Shown one piece after another: positions 3,164-13,860 of a DNA stretch of 64,000 nucleotides; the stretch's first letter is position 1, and each line of letters opens with the position of its first letter. The notes beneath the pieces were generated by a model, which saw only the letters and a program-made list of their open reading frames with translations, had not been told where the DNA came from and did not search any database. Both the position numbers and the translations under genes were made by a program. Source of the DNA: Haloferax marinisediminis (GTDB taxonomy: Archaea; Halobacteriota; Halobacteria; Halobacteriales; Haloferacaceae). The stretch spans positions 1,860,001 to 1,924,000 of the forward strand of contig NZ_WKJP01000001.1 of NCBI RefSeq assembly GCF_009674585.1, written 5' to 3'.

Positions 3164-6100
3164 CTACGCCCCGATGGCGCGGGCGAGCATCTCGACTGGG
3201 TGCGGCGGTTCCTCGTCGACGCCCATGTCTTCGAGTTGCGACCGGCAGGACGCGCCGGGGGCGACGACGACATCTCCCGGACTGTCTGCGACCTGACCGG
3301 AGAGGATGTCTCCGATGGCCATCGACATGGAGTAGTGTTCTGCCTCGTAGCCGAACGACCCGGACATGCCACAGCACGTCGAGTCCAGCGGGTCCACGTC
3401 GAATCCAGCGCGACGGAGGACGCCCACCGCGTGGTGGTCTTTCTTCGTGGACTTCTGGTGACAGTGACCGTGGTACGTCAGGTAATCGTTCTGCGGGAGG
3501 AACGAGAGGTTCTCGTCCAGTCGGAACGTGTCGAAGTACTCCATGATACCGAAGGAGTTGGCCGCGACGGCCTCCACGTCGTCGCCGGAGAGCAAGTCGA
3601 GGTAGTCCGACTGGAACATCACGGCATCCGATGGTTCACAGAGGACGATGTCCCAGTCCTCTTCGACGAAGGGTGCGAGCACCTCGACGTTCTGCTCCGC
3701 GTCGGCGCGGGCCTTGTCGAGGAAGCCCTTCGAGTGCGGCGGTCGGCCGGACCCGGCGACACCGTCGGGGATACGAACGTGGACGTTCGCGGCTTCGAGC
3801 GCTTCCACGGCCGCTTTCCCGACTTCTGGGTGGTTGTAGTTCGTGTAGGTGTCCGGGAACAACAGCACCTTCCGGTCGGCCTGTGCTTCTGCGATGCTCG
3901 CGGCGCCACGCGACTCGAACCACTCGACGAAGCTCGTCGAGTGGAACTTCGGCAGCGAGCGTTCTTTCGCGATACCGATGGTCTTCTCCATCAGTGTCCG
4001 CGCACCGGGAATCTTCGTCGCCGCGTTGGCGACTGGCGCGAACGCCGACCCATATGCAGACAGCGAGTCGATGTTGGCGAAAATCTTGTCGCGGAGGCTC
4101 GACCCGTTGCGCTGGTGGTACTCGTGCACCACTTCGGCTTTCATCTTCGCCATGTCGACGCCACTCGGGCAGTCTTTCGAACAGCCCTTACAGCCGACAC
4201 AGAGGTCCAGCACCTCGTGGACGAACTCGTCGGTGAACATCTCGTCTTCTGGGAGGCCACCGCTCATCGCCTGTCGGAGCATGTTGGCGCGGCCGCGTGT
4301 CGCCTGAATCTCCTCTTCGGCGGCACGGAACGTCGGACACATGACGCCGCCGACGGTCGACTGTTGACCGCGACAGCCAGCACACCCGTGACAGAGCTCG
4401 ACCATGCCTTCGAAGCCGTTGTCGTTGTCCCAGTTCAGCGCGGGGTCGAACCCAGCGTCGAAGTCGTAGTCGGGTGAGAACCGGAGGTTCTCGGTCAAAT
4501 CGTACTCTCCGCAGATGTTCCCCGGGTTGAGCAACCAGTCGGGGTCGAACTCGCTCTTCAGGTCGCGGAAGACGTTCCAGAGGTGGTCACCGTACAGTTT
4601 GCGGTTCCACTGGGTTCGGGCCCGACCGTCGCCGTGTTCACCAGAGACCGACCCACCGTACTTGACGACGAGGTCGGTCACTTCGTCCGCGATGGCTTCG
4701 TACGTCTCGACGCCTTCGACGGTCTTCGTGTTGATGAGCGGGCGGATGTGGAGGACGCCCGGACCGGCGTGTGCGTAGTACGACGCGAAGGTGTCGTGTT
4801 CGTCGAGGATGTCCTGGAAGTCAGAGACGTAGTCGGGGAGGTTCTCCGCCGGGATGGCGGTGTCCTCGATGTACGCGATGTGCTTCTCGTCGGTCGTCCG
4901 CGAGAGCAGAATCGGGAGTCCCGACTTGCGCATCTTCCAGAACTTCGCGCGGGTGTCGGCGTCGTGTGCCTCCATGAAGTCGGTCGCGCGACGTTCTTTG
5001 TCGGTCACCGAGGCGGACCCACCGTTGGGTTCGAACTCGGTCCCGTCGGGGTCGATGACGCGGTCTTCGATGAGGTCTGCGACTTTCTGTTTGCCATCCT
5101 CGTCGGAGTCCGCGTAGAACTCGACGAGGAGCGTGGAGTCCGTTCCCTCCGGAAGCATCCCGACCACGTCGGCGAACTCGGCCGTGTCGCGCGCCAAGTC
5201 GAGGAGCACGTCGTCCATGACCTCGACGGCCGCGGGTTCGTGTTCGAGGATGGGCGCGACGTCGTGCATCGCGTCGATGACGTCGTCGTAGGTGAGAAGT
5301 GCGACCGACGCCGTCTCCGGGATGGTCTCCAGCGAGACAGTTGCCTTCGTGACGATTGCCAGCGTCCCTTCGCTCCCCGCGATGAGGCGACCGAGGTTGA
5401 CGGTCCCTGCTTCCCACTCGTCGTCGATGCCGGTGTCGTCGGGAGTCCGACGTTCACCGCGCATCTCGTCGACGAGCATGTCGAGGTTGTACCCCGAGAC
5501 GTTGCGTTTGAGGTCAGGGTACCGTTCGGATATCTCGTCTGCCTCTTCGTCGAGAATCTGGGCGACTTTCGCGTAGATTCGCTCTTCGAGCGTGCCTTCG
5601 GGGTCGCCTGCTTCACGAAGCTCGTCGACGCTCACTTCTCCGAGCGTCGTCACCGTCCCGTCTGCGAGGACGACTTCGAGTTCTTCGATGTAGTAGTCGG
5701 TCTTGCCGTACTTCAGGGAGTGTGCCCCGGTCGAGTTGTTGCCGATTGCGCCACCGAGGGCGGAGCGGTCACCCCACGCCGGGTCGGGCGCGAACTTCAG
5801 GCCGTGTGGCGCCAGTTCTTCGTTCAGTTCGCCGAGACGGACACCGACCTGTGCGGTCGCCGTTCGTGTGTCGGGGTTGACGTCGGTGACCTCGCCCATG
5901 TGACGAACGAGGTCGAGGACGACGGCCTCGTTGACCGTCTGCCCGGCGAGACTCGTGCCGCCGCCTCGCGGGAGGACGGGTATCTCTCGCTCGGCGCAGT
6001 ACTCCATCACCGCCGCCACGTCTGCCGTCGATTTCGGCATGACGACGCCGATGGGCATCTTCTCGTACGCCGAGGCGTCCGTGGCGTACAGCGTTCTCGT

Positions 6101-6241
6101 GTAGGTGTCGAATCGCACGTCGCCCTCGACGATAGATTCGAGGTCTTCGACCAGCCCTGGCCGCTCTACGTCGTCGCTGACGTAGTCGTAGTTCCCCTCC
6201 AGCGAAGGGTCAGCGGCCGCTTCGTGCGTGTTAGATGCCAT
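3164..6241 (-). CDS. dld: D-lactate/glycolate dehydrogenase, FAD + Fe-S + CCG fusion
   Basis: Very long oxidoreductase (1025 residues) that fuses what are separate GlcD and GlcF/GlpC subunits in many bacteria. FAD-binding type 4 domain near residues 60-220 (PRGGGTSLAGQ at 91-101, GNNSTGAHSLKYG), FAD-oxidase C-terminal domain to about 560, then two ferredoxin-type clusters (CHGCAGCRG near 617; CVGCKGCSKDCP near 684), then a cysteine-rich CCG domain (YHGHCHQK near 924; STCCGMSGSFG near 954; GASCRSQ). It should oxidise D-lactate or glycolate and pass electrons to the membrane chain. A lactate permease lies just upstream on the same strand, which favours lactate. TATA-like CTTTATTG near 6281 gives a short leader. 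Confidence 0.85.
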   Translation of the reverse strand: MASNTHEAAADPSLEGNYDYVSDDVERPGLVEDLESIVEGDVRFDTYTRTLYATDASAYEKMPIGVVMPKSTADVAAVMEYCAEREIPVLPRGGGTSLAGQTVNEAVVLDLVRHMGEVTDVNPDTRTATAQVGVRLGELNEELAPHGLKFAPDPAWGDRSALGGAIGNNSTGAHSLKYGKTDYYIEELEVVLADGTVTTLGEVSVDELREAGDPEGTLEERIYAKVAQILDEEADEISERYPDLKRNVSGYNLDMLVDEMRGERRTPDDTGIDDEWEAGTVNLGRLIAGSEGTLAIVTKATVSLETIPETASVALLTYDDVIDAMHDVAPILEHEPAAVEVMDDVLLDLARDTAEFADVVGMLPEGTDSTLLVEFYADSDEDGKQKVADLIEDRVIDPDGTEFEPNGGSASVTDKERRATDFMEAHDADTRAKFWKMRKSGLPILLSRTTDEKHIAYIEDTAIPAENLPDYVSDFQDILDEHDTFASYYAHAGPGVLHIRPLINTKTVEGVETYEAIADEVTDLVVKYGGSVSGEHGDGRARTQWNRKLYGDHLWNVFRDLKSEFDPDWLLNPGNICGEYDLTENLRFSPDYDFDAGFDPALNWDNDNGFEGMVELCHGCAGCRGQQSTVGGVMCPTFRAAEEEIQATRGRANMLRQAMSGGLPEDEMFTDEFVHEVLDLCVGCKGCSKDCPSGVDMAKMKAEVVHEYHQRNGSSLRDKIFANIDSLSAYGSAFAPVANAATKIPGARTLMEKTIGIAKERSLPKFHSTSFVEWFESRGAASIAEAQADRKVLLFPDTYTNYNHPEVGKAAVEALEAANVHVRIPDGVAGSGRPPHSKGFLDKARADAEQNVEVLAPFVEEDWDIVLCEPSDAVMFQSDYLDLLSGDDVEAVAANSFGIMEYFDTFRLDENLSFLPQNDYLTYHGHCHQKSTKKDHHAVGVLRRAGFDVDPLDSTCCGMSGSFGYEAEHYSMSMAIGDILSGQVADSPGDVVVAPGASCRSQLEDMGVDEEPPHPVEMLARAIGA

Positions 6242-6283
6242 TGATTAGTCTCTCTAGTAGTGGATTTGTGTGAAACAATAAAG

Positions 6284-6301
6284 ACACCCGGAAACGGGTG
6301 T
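6284..6301 (-). promoter_or_regulatory. Perfect hairpin between lctP and dld, beside the dld TATA box
   Basis: ACACCCG-GAAA-CGGGTGT is a perfect 7-bp inverted repeat with a 4-nt loop. It lies between the end of lctP and the start of dld, directly next to the dld TATA-like element (minus strand CTTTATTG). On the minus strand it is followed by a T-rich stretch, so it could end lctP transcripts, or be an operator at the dld promoter. Confidence 0.5.
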
Positions 6302-6346: not shown

Positions 6347-8092
6347 TCAGAACACGCCGGGGAACAGCACGTAGCTGAACAGGAGCGTCAGGATGCCAGT
6401 GGCAGTGCCGTAGTAGACGAGCGGGATGAGTTCGAGACGGATGACGCGACCCTCTTCGCCGACGAGGCCGACGACCGCGAGCGCGGCGACGACGTTGTGG
6501 ACGGCGATGAGGTTACCGATGGCACCACCGACTGCCTGCGCACCAAGCATGATGGTCTTCGGCGTGCCAATCGAGTCTGCGACACCGTACTGGAAGGTAC
6601 CGAACAGGATGTCGGAGACGGTGTTCGACCCTGCGAGGAACGCACCGAACGCGCCCACGTACGCGGCGAAGAACGGGTAAGCCGAGCCAGCGACGCTCGC
6701 CATGCCCTCGGAGAGGACGATGAGCATGCTGTCCGAACCGGTTGCTGCGCCGGACTGGAGCATAATCTGCACCGTCGCGACGGCGAACAGCAGTGCGACG
6801 ACTGCGGGTGCGACCTTCTCGACGGTCTCTGCCCACGAGGCCTTGATCTCTTCACTCCGCATTCCGTGAATCGGAATCGTCACGAGGTGCACTGCGATGA
6901 ACACTGCACCGGGGAGGTAGAGGAACGCGAAGTCGTTTCCGAGACCCGTTCCGAGGATGTTGCTCCATCCAACGACGAACAGGTCACTCGTGATGAAGGC
7001 CTTGACAGGGTCGGCGACGCGGGTAACGACGAGCAGGAGCGCGACGAGCGCGTACGGCGTCCACGCCTTCAGGAGCGACATCTGACCGGCAGACGCCGGC
7101 ATGCTGGACTGAACCGACCCACCGTCGGCGGCGACGGTGACGTTGTCGTTCGTCGACTCGCCGGGCTCGATGTCACCAACCCAGTGGTCGGGCCACGACG
7201 ATTCTGGGGCGAAGTCCCACTCTTCGTCGGGGTGGAAGAGGCCAGCCTTGAGCGCGCTGACCGTCACGGCGAGACCGACCATCGACCCGAGAAGACCCGG
7301 GAACTCCGGTCCGAGGAAGTACGCGGTGAGGAAGTACGGAACCGAGAAGGACGCCCACGCGAACAGCGTCAGGGGAAGCACTTCGAGTGCCGGCTTGATG
7401 GACTTCTCTTCACCGAAGAAGCGCGTCATCATGGCGACACCGATGAACGGAAGCGCGATACCGACGACGACGTGGTGCATGGCAGCGAACACTGCGATTT
7501 CGCTGACCCACGCGGCGATGGACTCGTAGCCTCCAGCACCGAGAACTGTGGTGCTGATCGTCTCGACGCCCTCGAAGATGTCGATCATCCCGATGATGAG
7601 CGGCGTCCCGACGGCACCGAACGTAATCGCCATGAGGTTACCCGTGAGGGCGACAACGACGGCGGCCAGCGGCGGGAAGCCAAGGCCGACGAGGAGCGGG
7701 CCGACGATTGCTGCGGGCGTCCCGAAGCCGGCGGCCGACTCGATGAACGATCCCATGAGGAAGACGAGCAGGACGACCTGCACGCGACGGTCCTCACTGA
7801 TGGATGCGAAGCCGTTGTTGATGGAGTCGAACGCGCCCGTCTGCTTGAGCGTGTACAGAAGTAGGATTGCGCCGAAAACGATGTACAGGATGTTCGCCGC
7901 AGTGATGAACCCGTTAATCGTCGCAGCAGCAATCCACGTCGGGGTCATGCCCCAGCCGACGACACCAGCGCCGATCGCGACCAACCACGCGACCGGCATC
8001 GCCCGCGTCGCGGGCCAATACCGACCGACCATGAGGTATGCGATGGTCAGAAGCGGCAGCAGCGCGATGAGTGCATCGGTCGCACTAACCAT
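6347..8092 (-). CDS. lctP: Lactate permease, LctP family
   Basis: Polytopic membrane protein of about 581 residues, the usual length for the LctP/LldP family, with twelve or more hydrophobic segments. Family signatures are [19 protein letters not shown] in the N-terminal half and [18 protein letters not shown] in the C-terminal half. The family moves L- or D-lactate (also glycolate) with protons or sodium. A soluble acidic loop occurs near residues 285-335. ATG at 8107 gives a five-residue longer form. The minus-strand TATA-like ATATTTAT near 8189 implies a leader of about 60-70 nt. It is upstream of dld, and divergent from an HTH gene with which it shares a regulatory region. Confidence 0.9.
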
Positions 8093-8107: not shown

Positions 8108-8465
8108 AGTTCGTCCCAGCCATTTCCGTTCCAGATTCGTGCCTGATGCAGAGCATCGTGGAATCTGCTACACAACTTTTGTGATAAATATCTATCGTTC
8201 GTCGCTATTCATGACATATCTTGCTCTCGGACCAGTTCGGTGGTTCGACACCCAGTACACTCGTGTGTAAGTGAGCCAAGTATCGGTTAAAACCCCAATT
8301 TCGGCCAGTTCAGAGGCTCTGGATACCATTTGATTTTTCGTGTCTTTTTGCTGAGAGTGGGACTCGAACGACCGATTCATTCGTGTGAATTGGCCAGTAT
8401 ATACGAGTGCATTGGTGTTTCAGTCGTGTGCAAAGGCTTATACACTCGTGTGTAAAGGTCAACTC
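8108..8465. promoter_or_regulatory. Divergent regulatory region with five operator-like sites
   Basis: This 358-nt region between lctP and the HTH gene holds no ORF. A 14-nt element of form TnCAnTCGTnTnnA recurs: TACACTCGTGTGTA at 8256-8269, TTCATTCGTGTGAA at 8376-8389, TTCAGTCGTGTGCA at 8419-8432, TACACTCGTGTGTA at 8441-8454 (its 15-nt core plus A is identical to the first), and on the minus strand TGCACTCGTATATA at 8398-8411. Each is a dyad around TCGT (TACAC/GTGTA). The site at 8441 overlaps the TATA element TTATAC of the HTH gene, placing the start codon about 26 nt downstream; the outer site faces the lctP promoter (TATA-like near 8189). Confidence 0.7.
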
Positions 8466-9113
8466 ATGGAAGAGGAGTCTCGCGCGCGTTCCCGAAACGA
8501 GCACGGCCAGTACGTGGGGCGCATCCCACTGGAGGCGGTTCTGGAGGTGTTCGACGAACGGGACGACGCCGCTCGGCCACTCACTGCGGCCGACGTGATG
8601 GAGGCACTCGACTGCTCTCGCCGGACGGCGCACAACAAACTGAACGAACTCGAAGAACAGGGCGACCTCGCGACCAGAAAAGTCGGGGCCCGGAGTCGCG
8701 TCTGGTGGGTTCCGTTGACTGGTGAGTCTCACCGTGCACGTGCGTCCTCGGAATCGAGTACCGACCAGTCGGCGACGGACGATGCGACAGCGACTGGCGT
8801 CGACGTCGAGGATACTCGACGCGTCGTCGACCACCCACCTGCAGTTTCGAACGCAATCGAACAGGCCGACTTGCCGGGGAGTGGGCCGATGCTGGACGCC
8901 CGACGCGAAGCACTCTCAGCGGCGTACGACTATCTAACCGACCATCCCGAGGCGAAGAAGGCAGATTTCCTTCGTGACGTGTACTTCCAGTACCCGGCAG
9001 GATTCGAATCCGCAGAAGGGTGGTGGAACGCGATTCAACCCGCACTCAAGCAACTCCCCGGTGTCGACCCACCGGAAGAGCGTGGTCACATCTGGCACTT
9101 CCTCGGTGGGTAA
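8466..9113 (+). CDS. HTH regulator, probable autoregulator of the lactate island
   Basis: Protein of 215 residues. A winged helix near residues 18-75 (TAADVMEALDCSRRTAHNKL as helix-turn-helix, then ATRKVGARSRVWWVP as wing), an acidic low-complexity linker (about 80-135), and a C-terminal domain (DARREALSAAYDYLTDHPEA through GHIWHFLGG) seen in haloarchaeal regulators. ATG at 8466 follows TTATAC by about 26 nt, so the mRNA is probably leaderless. Operator-like dyads overlap that TATA box, which suggests self-repression. By position it most likely also controls lctP; binding of lactate or another ligand is a guess. Confidence 0.75.
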   Translation: MEEESRARSRNEHGQYVGRIPLEAVLEVFDERDDAARPLTAADVMEALDCSRRTAHNKLNELEEQGDLATRKVGARSRVWWVPLTGESHRARASSESSTDQSATDDATATGVDVEDTRRVVDHPPAVSNAIEQADLPGSGPMLDARREALSAAYDYLTDHPEAKKADFLRDVYFQYPAGFESAEGWWNAIQPALKQLPGVDPPEERGHIWHFLGG

Positions 9114-9186: not shown

Positions 9187-9240
9187 ATGTCAATCGATTC
9201 ACCGGCCGATAGAACCGTCGTGGAGTGGGTCACTCGATGA
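9187..9240 (+). CDS. Possible 17-codon leader ORF coupled to the Nramp-like gene
   Basis: Reads MSIDSPADRTVVEWVTR and ends in TGA that overlaps the next start codon as ATGA. A good TATA element (TTTATAC, centre 9151) predicts transcription from about 9177, so this ORF would be the first one on the message, with a leader of about 10 nt. It may couple or regulate translation of the transporter. No homology can be claimed for such a short peptide. Confidence 0.35.
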   Translation: MSIDSPADRTVVEWVTR

Positions 9241-11081
9241 GTGACGGTCACGTCGCCCCCGACCCTGCCGACCGGCCACAGATGGAATCGACTGACGACG
9301 ACGACCCGAGCGACGAATCGTCACCGAATCGAAGCACCGCAGAAGAGGCGGACGTTCGAGGTGTCTCCGGTGGCGACGACGTGTACGCCTCGGAAATCGA
9401 AGGAAAACAGTATCGCGGCACGTGGTACCTCCCGCTTCGCTACGACACCTTAGACGAGTCTCCCGACTCAGACGAGTACCCCGAACAAGGCACCGGCGGG
9501 TCGTTCCGCCTCACCGACCTTCCGCGCGTTCCACGCGTCGGCCACGTCGTGGGGCCGTCGGCGATAATGCTCGGTGCCTCGCTCGGAAGTGGTGAGACGC
9601 TCTTTTGGCCCGTCTTGACCGCACAGTTCGGCTGGCTGGTGTTCTGGGCGTTCATCATCGGCGTCTTCACCCAGTTCGTCATCAACACGGAACTTCAGCG
9701 CTGGACGCTCGCGACTGGTGAGAGCATCTTTCGCGCGTTCGCACGCGTGGGGACCTACTGGCCGTGGGCGTTCTTGTTCGGTGGCCTCGTCAGTCTCGGC
9801 TGGCCCGGATGGGCCGCTGGGGCCGCACAGGTCGCTGCGACAGCACTCGGATTGAGTGGGTCGGTCAGCTTCCTCGGGTTCTCCATCGCCACGTGGAAAC
9901 TCATCGCTGTCGGCCTGATGGCGCTCATCTGGCTCTCGTATCAGACCTCGTCTGTCATGTACAACGCCGTCGAGGTGTTCCAGATTGGGCTCCTGTTCGT
10001 CGCCATCGGTGCGACGTTGATGCTCGTCGGTGTCACCGGCTCGTGGGTCGAATTCTCCACCGTCCCCGACGCTGCGCAGTCGATTGGGAGTCTCCCGGCA
10101 GGCGTCGACATCGCCGTCTTCCTCGGCGGCCTCGCCTTCGCTGGCGCTGGCGGGTATCTCAACCTCTCGCAGAGTCTCTGGATGCGAGAGAAAGGATACG
10201 GGATGGGCAACTACCAAGGGCGAGTGAAGAATCCACTCCGCGGCGACGACCCGGAACCCATCGAACGCGACGGGTTCACCTTCCGTCCGACGGTGACGAA
10301 CCTTCGGCGATGGCGTGGGTGGTGGCGCGTCGTCCAACTCGAACACCTGCTAACGTTCGTTCTCGGACTCCTCGTCGTCGCACCCGCGCTCATGAGTGTC
10401 GCCATGAAGTACGCCCCCGGGACGACGACCGACGCCATCCAGATGTGGTTGGGTGACGTCGTTCCCCTCCTCGGTCCTGTCGGGTCGTTCCTCGTCTTCG
10501 CCATCCTCTTCGTCGCGCTCTTCACGACCGAATACGCCATCGTCGAATCGTTCGTCCGCAACAGTGCCGACGCGCTCTACGAGTCCTACGGCCGTGAAGC
10601 TGGGTGGGACCTCCCGAAGCTGTTCTGGCGACTGCTCACCGCGTTCTGCGTCTGGGGCGTCGTCATCATCCTCGTGTTCACGTCACCGTTCGAGGGCCGC
10701 GAACCGTTCTTCTTCCTCGTCGTCGGCGCAGCGATGTCTGGCGTGATGATGTGGCCGTACACCGCACTCGTCCTCGTGATGAACACGACGCGACTCCCCG
10801 AACACATCCAACCCGGATGGGGCCGCGTCGTGGCGATGTGGTGGGCGACTGGGTTCTACGGGTACTTCTCGGTCCTCCTCGTTGGGACGACGTTGGCCGA
10901 ATTCGGACTCACGGCGTTCGAGACGGCCCCGTCGATTCTCGGCAGCAGCGTCGGCGGGTACGCCCTCTGGGCCGTCTACTTCGTCGTCCAAGCGTACACG
11001 GTCGGGAAGTCCGCCGCTGGCAAACGTGCCGCTTCCGGGACCGTCCCCGACGCAGCGGAGGCCAGCGGATGGTTCTCATAA
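9237..11081 (+). CDS. Nramp-superfamily transporter lacking the metal motif
   Basis: Membrane protein of 614 residues with an acidic cytoplasmic N-terminus (about 95 residues) and eleven or so hydrophobic segments. GHVVGPSAIMLGASLGSGE resembles the first helix of the Nramp fold, but the DPGN metal-binding motif reads GSGE, and no MPH motif is seen in the sixth helix region (GAGGYLNLSQSLWMREKGYG). Metal transport of the MntH type is therefore unlikely. Lying between the lactate permease/regulator and the lut genes, it may carry an organic acid or another solute linked to lactate use (inference). Start at 9237 overlaps the stop of a tiny upstream ORF. Confidence 0.75.
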   Translation: MSDGHVAPDPADRPQMESTDDDDPSDESSPNRSTAEEADVRGVSGGDDVYASEIEGKQYRGTWYLPLRYDTLDESPDSDEYPEQGTGGSFRLTDLPRVPRVGHVVGPSAIMLGASLGSGETLFWPVLTAQFGWLVFWAFIIGVFTQFVINTELQRWTLATGESIFRAFARVGTYWPWAFLFGGLVSLGWPGWAAGAAQVAATALGLSGSVSFLGFSIATWKLIAVGLMALIWLSYQTSSVMYNAVEVFQIGLLFVAIGATLMLVGVTGSWVEFSTVPDAAQSIGSLPAGVDIAVFLGGLAFAGAGGYLNLSQSLWMREKGYGMGNYQGRVKNPLRGDDPEPIERDGFTFRPTVTNLRRWRGWWRVVQLEHLLTFVLGLLVVAPALMSVAMKYAPGTTTDAIQMWLGDVVPLLGPVGSFLVFAILFVALFTTEYAIVESFVRNSADALYESYGREAGWDLPKLFWRLLTAFCVWGVVIILVFTSPFEGREPFFFLVVGAAMSGVMMWPYTALVLVMNTTRLPEHIQPGWGRVVAMWWATGFYGYFSVLLVGTTLAEFGLTAFETAPSILGSSVGGYALWAVYFVVQAYTVGKSAAGKRAASGTVPDAAEASGWFS

Positions 11082-11162
11082 CTCTCGATATCCTTCATCA
11101 TTAACCGTAGTAGGGCTGTTTGAACCCGAAGAACGATTATGTAGAACGCGCAAGCCGTGAAT

Positions 11163-11666
11163 ATGTCAACCGGCACGGTTGCGACGTTCGAGGACTCACT
11201 CGAACGACTCGAAGTAGGCTGGACACACACGTCTTCGGGAGAGTTGTCCACAGTCCTTCGCGAGGTCTGTGACGACCCTGCTGTTGGCGTCGAACTTCCG
11301 TACGACGGTGTCGAACTCCCGCCGTGGGTGAACACCGACCCGACACCTGCCGACCTCCGAGCGGCGAACGTCGGCATCACGGCGGCAGGAATCGCGATTG
11401 CAGACTACGGGAGCGTCGTCGTGCAGGGCACGCCCGACGGCGTCGAACCCGTGAGTCTGTTCGGCGACCTCCACGTCGCCGTCCTCCGGAAGTCAGACAT
11501 CGTCTCGGGCATGCCCGAGGCGTTCGAATGGCTCGGCGAGGAGTTCCGGACGGGCCACGACTCTGCGATTATCGCCACCGGTCCGAGCGCGACTGCCGAC
11601 ATGGGTGCGCTGGTGAAGGGTGCGCACGGCCCAAAAGACGTCCACGTGGTGATTCTCGATGAGTAA
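11163..11666 (+). CDS. lutC: LUD-domain protein, LutC-like
   Basis: Protein of 167 residues with one LUD domain: GITAAGIAIADYGSVVVQG, LHVAVLRKSDIVSGMPEAF and the terminal GPSATADMGALVKGAHGP, all typical of LutC/YkgG. In bacteria LutABC oxidises L-lactate to pyruvate by an Fe-S route. ATG at 11163 lies about 25 nt after a TATA-like GATTATG, fitting a leaderless start; a GTG at 11157 is less likely. It overlaps the next gene by 8 nt, so the two are co-translated in one operon. Confidence 0.88.
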   Translation: MSTGTVATFEDSLERLEVGWTHTSSGELSTVLREVCDDPAVGVELPYDGVELPPWVNTDPTPADLRAANVGITAAGIAIADYGSVVVQGTPDGVEPVSLFGDLHVAVLRKSDIVSGMPEAFEWLGEEFRTGHDSAIIATGPSATADMGALVKGAHGPKDVHVVILDE

Positions 11667-13860
11667 GGCACGCGAAGCGAAGGCGGCGAAGATTCGCCAG
11701 TTGATGGAGACCGAAGGCGACGCCGTCAACACGAGTACGAGCGGATTCAACGAGGGCCGATACCAGGCGGTCCAGACGCTCGACGATTACGAGGGGCTGA
11801 AAGCCGAGGCTCGAGCGATCAAAGAAGACGCCATCGAGCGACTCCCCGACCTTCTCGACCAACTCCGAGAGACCATCGAGGAGAACGGCGGGACGATGTA
11901 CATCGCCGACGACGCCGCGGACGCGAACCGCTACATCCGGGAGGTGTGCGAGGACAAAGATGCCGAACGCGTCGTCAAGTCGAAGTCGATGACCTCCGAG
12001 GAGATCGAGGTCAACGACGAACTCGAAGCAGCGGACGTCGACGTGGTCGAGACGGACCTCGGTGAGTGGGTCCTCCAGGTCGCCGACGAGGCACCCTCGC
12101 ACATCGTCGCCCCCGCCATCCACAAGTCGCGGGAGGCCATCGCCGACCTGTTCAACGAGACGTTCGAACCCGACGAACCGCTGCAGACGGCAGAAGAACT
12201 CACGATGTTCGCCCGCCAGCAACTCGGCGAACTCATCGAAGGTGCCGACGTGGGCATGACCGGTGCCAACTTCATCACCGCCGACACGGGGACGATGGCG
12301 CTCGTCACCTCTGAAGGGAACGCCCGAAAGACGGCCGTCGTTCCGGACACGCACGTCGCCGTCGCCGGCGTCGAGAAAGTCGTCCCGGCGGTCGAAGACC
12401 TCCAGCCCTTCATCGAACTCATCGGCAAGTCGGGCACGGGGCAGAACATCACCTCTTACATCTCGCTTCTCACGCCGCCTGTGGAGTCGCCGACGGTCGA
12501 TTTCGACGACCCTGACACTCCAATCACTGAGAACGAGACCGACCGCGACTTCCACCTCGTCCTCATCGACAACGGTCGCCTCGACATGCGCGACGACGAG
12601 CAGTTGCGCGAGACGCTCTACTGCATCCGATGTTCGGCCTGTTCGAACGTCTGCGCCAACTTCCAGCACGTCGGCGGTCACGCCTTCGGTGGCGAGACGT
12701 ACTCCGGCGGCATCGGAACCGGGTGGGAAGCCGGTGTCGAAGGCCTCGACTCTGCTGCGGAGTTCAACGACCTCTGTACCGGGTGTAGCCGGTGTACCAC
12801 TGCCTGCCCGGTCAACATCGACATCCCGTGGATAAACACGGTCGTTCGCGACCGGGTGAACCGTGGTGAGGTGTCGGAAGTCGATTGGCTCGTCGACGGA
12901 CTCACCCCCGACGAAGAACCCGGTGGCGTCAGCCTCCAGAAACGCTTCTTCGGCAACTTCGAGACGGCCGCGAAGGTCGGGAGCACCTTCGCTCCCGTCT
13001 CCAACTGGGTCACTCAGACGTCCGTCTCTCGGAACCTCATGGAACGGTTCCTCGGCATCGACGCTCGCCGCGAACTCCCCTCGTTCCAGCGCGAGACGCT
13101 GAAAGACTGGTTCGACGCGCGTGACTCACACGTCCAGAACCCGACGCGAACCGCCGTGCTCTACCCCGACGTGTACACGAACCACGTGCAGGTCGAACGC
13201 GGGAAGGCGGCGGTCCGCACCCTCGAAGCCCTCGGTGTCGACGTGGTCGTCCCCGACGTTCGCTCGTCGGGTCGCGCTCCGCTGTCGCAGGGGATGATTG
13301 CCACCGCCGAAGACCACGCGCACGACGTGTACGCCGGCCTCGCAGAGTACATCGACGAGGGTCGCGACATCGTCGTCATCGAACCCTCGGACCTCGCGAT
13401 GTTCGACAACGAGTACGAGAAGTTCCTCTCCGAGAAGTCGTTCCAGCGCCTCTCCGACAGTAGCTTCGAGGTGATGGAGTACGTCTTCGGCCTGCTCGAA
13501 AACGGTGCGCCGACCGACGCCCTCGAATCGACCGACAGCGAGGAAGTCGCCTACCACAGTCACTGCCAGCAGCGAACCCTCGGCCTCGAAGGCTACACCG
13601 AGGCGGTCCTCGCTGACCTCGGCTACGACGTGGCCACTTCCGACGTGGAGTGCTGCGGGATGGCCGGGTCGTTCGGCTACAAATCGGAGTACTACGAACT
13701 GAGTATGGACGTTGGCTCTGAACTGCAAGGGCAGTTCCAGACCGACGAGACGCGAAATCGGACGGTCGTCGCCAGCGGCACCTCCTGTCTCGAACAACTC
13801 GACTCACTGCTTCGCCGGCCGTCGCGACACCCGGTCGAGCTCATCGCACCGCGGCGATAA
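11659..13860 (+). CDS. lutB: LutB-LutA fusion: LUD + 4Fe-4S + CCG domains
   Basis: Protein of 733 residues. N-terminal LUD domain as in LutB (about 60-310; GADVGMTGANFITADTGTMA), two 4Fe-4S motifs (CIRCSACSNVC near 321; CTGCSRCTTACP near 373), and a C-terminal cysteine-rich CCG region like LutA (DVYTNH, YHSHCQQ near 632, ECCGMAGSFGY near 664, ASGTSCLEQL). In most bacteria LutA and LutB are separate chains; here they are one. With LutC it should form an L-lactate dehydrogenase complex giving pyruvate. The CCG half resembles that of the giant dehydrogenase at 3164-6241. Confidence 0.88.
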   Translation: MSKAREAKAAKIRQLMETEGDAVNTSTSGFNEGRYQAVQTLDDYEGLKAEARAIKEDAIERLPDLLDQLRETIEENGGTMYIADDAADANRYIREVCEDKDAERVVKSKSMTSEEIEVNDELEAADVDVVETDLGEWVLQVADEAPSHIVAPAIHKSREAIADLFNETFEPDEPLQTAEELTMFARQQLGELIEGADVGMTGANFITADTGTMALVTSEGNARKTAVVPDTHVAVAGVEKVVPAVEDLQPFIELIGKSGTGQNITSYISLLTPPVESPTVDFDDPDTPITENETDRDFHLVLIDNGRLDMRDDEQLRETLYCIRCSACSNVCANFQHVGGHAFGGETYSGGIGTGWEAGVEGLDSAAEFNDLCTGCSRCTTACPVNIDIPWINTVVRDRVNRGEVSEVDWLVDGLTPDEEPGGVSLQKRFFGNFETAAKVGSTFAPVSNWVTQTSVSRNLMERFLGIDARRELPSFQRETLKDWFDARDSHVQNPTRTAVLYPDVYTNHVQVERGKAAVRTLEALGVDVVVPDVRSSGRAPLSQGMIATAEDHAHDVYAGLAEYIDEGRDIVVIEPSDLAMFDNEYEKFLSEKSFQRLSDSSFEVMEYVFGLLENGAPTDALESTDSEEVAYHSHCQQRTLGLEGYTEAVLADLGYDVATSDVECCGMAGSFGYKSEYYELSMDVGSELQGQFQTDETRNRTVVASGTSCLEQLDSLLRRPSRHPVELIAPRR

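Follow-up and report, generated by a model that had tools for sequence, protein, structure and literature searches.

LldR and LutR, the bacterial lactate regulators, belong to the GntR-FCD family. GdhR of Neisseria is a GntR-type regulator that acts at lctP (PMC6957213). In archaea, Ss-LrpB of Saccharolobus (Sulfolobus) solfataricus recognizes evenly spaced palindromes in front of its own gene, set at a pitch of whole helical turns beside the promoter, and its further targets include permease genes (PMC2995911). Lrs14 of Sulfolobus exerts negative autoregulation by covering its promoter (PMC2995911). In Hfx. volcanii, deletion of ludBC impairs growth on rhamnose, a lactate source (PMC8305020), lctP and dld form a bicistronic unit, and knock-down of endA induced lctP more strongly than any other gene (log2 7.0; PMC7714728); the expression range of lctP is therefore wide. 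In the literature searched, no description was found of the archaeal regulation of lactate uptake and oxidation, of a regulator or operator at the Hfx. volcanii lactate locus (HVO_1692-HVO_1697), of HVO_1695 studied as a regulator, or of its DNA code.

The same gene cluster is present in the window (the whole 64-kb stretch of DNA analyzed here), where five predicted operators lie between lctP and a divergent regulator gene:

3164..6241, minus strand: gene for a dld-like FAD/Fe-S oxidoreductase, following lctP (HVO_1697)
6347..8092, minus strand: lctP, L-lactate permease family (HVO_1696)
8183..8192, minus strand: lctP TATA box, GATATTTATC
8252..8273: predicted operator O1, core 8256-8269 (plus), TACACTCGTGTGTA; solitary, about 60 bp upstream of the lctP TATA box
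8372..8393: predicted operator O2, core 8376-8389 (plus), TTCATTCGTGTGAA; first in the tiled array
8394..8415: predicted operator O3, core 8398-8411 (minus), read on the minus strand as TGCACTCGTATATA
8415..8436: predicted operator O4, core 8419-8432 (plus), TTCAGTCGTGTGCA; over the BRE region
8437..8458: predicted operator O5, core 8441-8454 (plus), TACACTCGTGTGTA; includes the regulator-gene TATA box
8437..8443, plus strand: regulator-gene TATA box CTTATAC, read from the sequence, its centre about 26 bp before the ATG
8466..9113, plus strand: regulator gene, 215 aa (HVO_1695 in Hfx. volcanii by gene order)
9225..11081, plus strand: gene for an Nramp-related transporter, the most constant neighbour of the regulator gene
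11157..13860, plus strand: ludC (11157-11666) and ludB (11659-13860), NAD-independent L-lactate dehydrogenase genes (HVO_1693 and HVO_1692)

The Hfx. volcanii order, HVO_1697 (dld-like), HVO_1696 (lctP), HVO_1695, HVO_1694, HVO_1693 (ludC) and HVO_1692 (ludB), is that of the window, and from this order we infer that the HTH gene corresponds to HVO_1695 and the Nramp gene to HVO_1694.

The window contains exactly five copies of the word TnCAnTCGTnTnnA, all of them within 8256-8454. An earlier note on this DNA had reported five 14-nt dyads here, and all of its coordinates were right: five copies were found against a mean of 0.39 in 100 shuffles, none of which reached five. The whole 3.49-Mb genome holds 16 copies, five of them in the lctP-regulator intergenic region, against four for the reversed control pattern. 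The copies at 8256-8269 and 8441-8454 match exactly, as had been noted. Comparison of the upstream regions of 40 orthologous loci gave TnCACWCGWGTGnA as the consensus of the core and revealed an outer CC/GG at a fixed distance, which extends it to the 22-bp palindrome CCnnTnCACWCGWGTGnAnnGG. By this comparison the five 14-mers are degenerate copies of the longer palindrome. The reported strands, four plus and one minus, are as listed above, but orientation carries little meaning because the word is palindromic. Four of the 22-bp sites tile edge to edge at a pitch of 22, 21 and 22 bp across 8372-8458, immediately before the winged-helix gene, so that several helically phased, conserved operators stand at the regulator's own promoter. 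The overlap of one copy with the TATA box of the HTH gene also held up: CTTATAC shares 3 nt with the 14-mer and lies wholly within the 22-bp site. O5 had the highest profile score of the five sites, and O4 was the best conserved in Haloferax (mean pairwise identity of 0.91). Phased palindromic sites at the promoter of a regulator's own gene recall Ss-LrpB; the operators here differ in being longer, contiguous, TATA-containing and nearly confined to one locus.

Conservation of the array extends well beyond this genome. The earlier note would have been contradicted by absence of the motif from other Haloferax; instead, the array occupies the same positions in the 12 further species that have the gene. 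Its offsets of -90, -68, -47 and -25 from the ATG are kept without gaps in 13 Haloferax genomes, and these genomes nearly always have a fifth site at -209 to -212. Across most Haloferax and several further genera this fifth site is conserved at -209 to -214 relative to the start of the HTH gene. Mean pairwise identity within Haloferax was 0.70-0.91 for the sites vs. 0.52 for the spacer that separates O1 from the array. This spacer (8274-8371) keeps its length while its sequence diverges, with site starts 119-122 bp apart in Haloferax and some other genera, which hints at a constraint on distance such as looping or wrapping. Among 40 haloarchaeal loci, the 12 kb in front of the HTH gene contained 79 dyads vs. 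9 in 532 kb elsewhere, a 389-fold enrichment; each of 19 dyads with a permuted half-site gave 0 or 1 at the same loci and showed no enrichment. In a further 31 loci, left out of the motif definition and mostly from other haloarchaeal families, the 10.5 kb upstream of the gene held 30 dyads and the other 98 kb held none. A neighbouring site lay 20-23 bp away in 84 of 118 cases, and in 29 of 41 loci a site that covers the TATA region begins between -14 and -27. In Natrialbaceae and Haloarcula this TATA-overlapping site is often the sole one retained. The far orthologues L097, L099 and L100 have few or no sites although their recognition helix is invariant; in the distant genomes L099 and L100 the HTH gene lies between two diverged lctP genes and recognizable operators are almost absent. 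Single dyads matching at 9 of 10 positions are not rare in the genome (125 places vs. 83 for the reversed control), as chance repetition or a decayed mobile-element repeat would have it, but clustering, phasing, conservation across genera, the shuffles, the permuted dyads and the out-of-sample loci exclude such an origin, whose probability we regard as negligible.

The sites are nearly specific to the locus. A profile search of the genome at E<=10 returned all five sites and one other place (2213262-2213276), and a search of 15 Haloferax genomes at E<=1 returned the regulator locus and just two other places; since only the top first-pass candidates are scored, weak sites or weak members of a regulon may be missed. 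Two of these 15 genomes lack the regulator, and both gave no profile match at E<=1 and also lack a close lctP orthologue. Across 119 genomes of the family, a match at E<=0.3 was present in 23 of 38 genomes with the regulator (called at E<=about 1e-25) vs. 6 of 81 without it (Fisher p 1.2e-9). A wider regulon was considered for the best extra dyads of the genome, at 538274, 41557 and 2213262, which were treated as chance occurrences because they lie inside open frames or are isolated. On these comparisons, the array is real, conserved and nearly locus-specific.

A conserved motif that adjoins a regulator gene does not prove binding by that regulator, and the array might be the target of a protein encoded elsewhere, with the HTH gene as one target among others. 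We consider this quite improbable: across genera and families the gene and the motif occur together and disappear together, L098 retains the motif at the HTH-Nramp pair with neither lctP nor a lud gene near, and a genome nearly free of further sites is what is expected of a local regulator.

The protein of 8466-9113 has the recognition helix and beta wing of a winged-helix protein. Residues 22-81 are confidently modelled by AlphaFold as this fold (H22-31, H41-48, H52-65, E69-73 and E77-81; pLDDT 80-87), with sub-threshold Pfam matches to HTH_20/HTH_11 and a profile match to the CodY wHTH (E=0.003). The recognition helix CSRRTAHNKL is invariant in 41 orthologues. A variable, disordered linker follows and leads to an all-helical C-terminal domain that is better conserved than the rest. 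This domain matched nothing in Pfam or the PDB; searched alone with Foldseek, its best hit was the Spo0A C-terminal domain at a non-significant E of 0.5, and the full-model fold search for an effector domain reached an E of 2e-3 at best, a value due to the winged helix. With no known effector or sensor domain matched, lactate is a putative signal, suggested by gene neighbourhood and by the candidate operators at detached lctP genes. An Lrp/AsnC identity was rejected because Pfam and NCBIfam gave no match and the C-terminus is all-helical, not a beta-alpha-beta RAM fold; in lacking an Lrp/RAM domain by Pfam the regulator departs from Ss-LrpB. It resembles LldR/LutR and GdhR, which are often encoded adjacent to their targets, as a putative regulator of lactate permease and dehydrogenase genes, but it has no GntR or FCD match and the logic proposed for it is archaeal TATA occlusion. 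The absence of these matches, with no significant Foldseek match for the C-terminal domain, likewise excluded a GntR-FCD protein of the LldR type, and a TrmB identity was dropped as there was no PF01978 match at E<=0.001. A list of putative iron-sulfur proteins that are reduced in iron-starved cells includes HVO_1695 (PMC11349517). The regulator has a single conserved Cys, located in CSRRTAHNKL, so its inclusion appears to be an error of numbering or annotation, or else points to an unexpected iron link.

The five words are very probably, on the comparative evidence, the switch for the regulator's own gene and for lactate uptake. We propose that they are operators for the winged-helix protein, with a dimer binding each 22-bp palindrome. 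The pitch of 21-22 bp, two helical turns, and the edge-to-edge arrangement would place the dimers of the array on one face of the DNA, probably in contact. The distance between TATA box and start follows an established haloarchaeal promoter geometry, and with the TATA box centred about 26 bp before the ATG the regulator mRNA should be leaderless. A role of the palindromes at the RNA level was rejected because the array lies upstream of this expected start and hence outside the regulator mRNA. Because O5 contains the TATA box and O4 covers the BRE, a filled array would exclude TBP/TFB and shut the regulator's own leaderless gene, giving negative autoregulation. The presence of a TATA-overlapping site in most loci, in Natrialbaceae and Haloarcula often as the sole site, makes such occlusion the best-supported action. 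Exclusion of TBP/TFB from the regulator's own promoter is also the logic of Lrs14, which differs in protein family and operator; in the present case the palindromes are several and tiled, and lctP would be a second target. The solitary operator, possibly with the array, would set transcription of lctP-dld, and binding may respond to a small metabolite from the lactate pathway, in the simplest case lactate itself. The reading as a whole, a locus-specific autoregulator that represses itself by covering its TATA box and also controls lctP, appears likely from sequence comparison. That the array serves an HTH autoregulator, as the earlier note had proposed, is supported by a motif that follows the HTH gene, and lctP where lctP has moved. 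A fuller version is rather doubtful in its entirety: cooperative dimers on the edge-to-edge row, direct sensing of lactate or a close metabolite, an occluding self-repressor that activates lctP from upstream, a C-terminal fold unmatched in the PDB and a haloarchaea-wide family.

Control of lctP appears to differ from that of the regulator gene. In all loci examined the candidate lctP operators lie upstream of the core promoter, the nearest starting at -153 from the start codon; because they are never over the lctP core promoter, simple occlusion cannot explain lctP control. Bound upstream, the regulator may activate lctP, or it may repress it through contacts made with the array. A concentration-dependent dual switch as in Ss-LrpB would have O4, and O1 for lctP, activate and a filled O5 repress, which would make the regulator an activator of lctP and not a repressor. 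This is quite possible without being probable. In all loci examined, the lctP operators stand clear of the TATA box, upstream of it by 30-70 bp or more; activators of the archaeal Lrp family bind directly upstream of the BRE, and the autoregulation of Ss-LrpB passes from positive to negative with concentration (PMC2995911). However, Natrialbaceae and other loci keep the TATA-overlapping site alone, which makes occlusion the common denominator. The lctP promoter and leader have an identity of 0.91 within Haloferax, above that of most operators. The leader contains CCACGATGCnnnGCATCAGGCACGAATCTGGAACGG just downstream of the lctP TATA box (8120-8175, minus strand), a block conserved across genera and frequently forming an inverted repeat TGCCA...TGGCA with a variable loop; it could be a second regulator site or an RNA leader element. 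A further element conserved in several genera, TCACGAAnAGCGAnnAACGATAGATATATATC (8183-8215, minus strand), extends over the TATA box of lctP on its upstream side and is a possible site for a separate activator.

The sites might instead serve primarily the Nramp-related transporter, with another substrate and a secondary tie to lactate. HTH-Nramp is the most constant pair, and in L092-L098 the other genes are farther away, inverted or absent nearby; the pair retains its upstream sites where lctP is several kb away or not nearby (L078, L092, L093 and L098). Nevertheless, lud genes are close by in most loci, and dyads occur upstream of lctP genes that have become detached from the pair. These dyads are at -350, -328, -306 and -188 in L172 and at -343, -321 and -299, again 22 bp apart, in L173; single or paired dyads are found in L174 (-326), L177 (-305 and -153) and L178 (-305 and -154). 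Detached lctP genes in L175 and L176 have only weak dyads and none at 9 of 10 positions. We regard a primary role at the Nramp gene as unlikely, and the sites appear to serve both the HTH gene and lctP, each of which is preceded by dyads in several genomes where lctP has relocated. The Nramp-related protein itself carries GASLGSGETLFWP instead of the DPGN motif in its first predicted membrane helix and GAGGYLNLSQ in place of the usual MPH, and it may therefore not carry metal ions.

The earlier note had also described a weaker copy of the dyad at dld (6262-6275). Read on the dld strand as TTCACACAAATCCA, it has one good half-site, and near the TATA-like box of dld other Haloferax keep just this half, TCACnC; the copy was left uncounted because the second half-site is not conserved. 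Expression of dld can come from the lctP promoter. Between lctP and dld in Haloferax there is a terminator-like hairpin, ACACCCGnnnnCGGGTGT, followed by CTTTAT (6276-6300, minus strand). The T-run of this hairpin is also the TATA-like box, 40 nt before dld, and the half-site TCACnC comes after it.

Phased multi-site autoregulation is already known from archaeal Lrp proteins; the regulator described here and its code appear to be new in the literature searched. The data supply an exact DNA code, point to a candidate protein and mark a target that is nearly unique in the genome, in a genus whose genetics are well developed. The edge-to-edge row with a TATA-containing member is a well-defined natural system in which to test promoter occlusion and cooperative autoregulation in archaea, and the array is a possible inducible promoter for haloarchaea.
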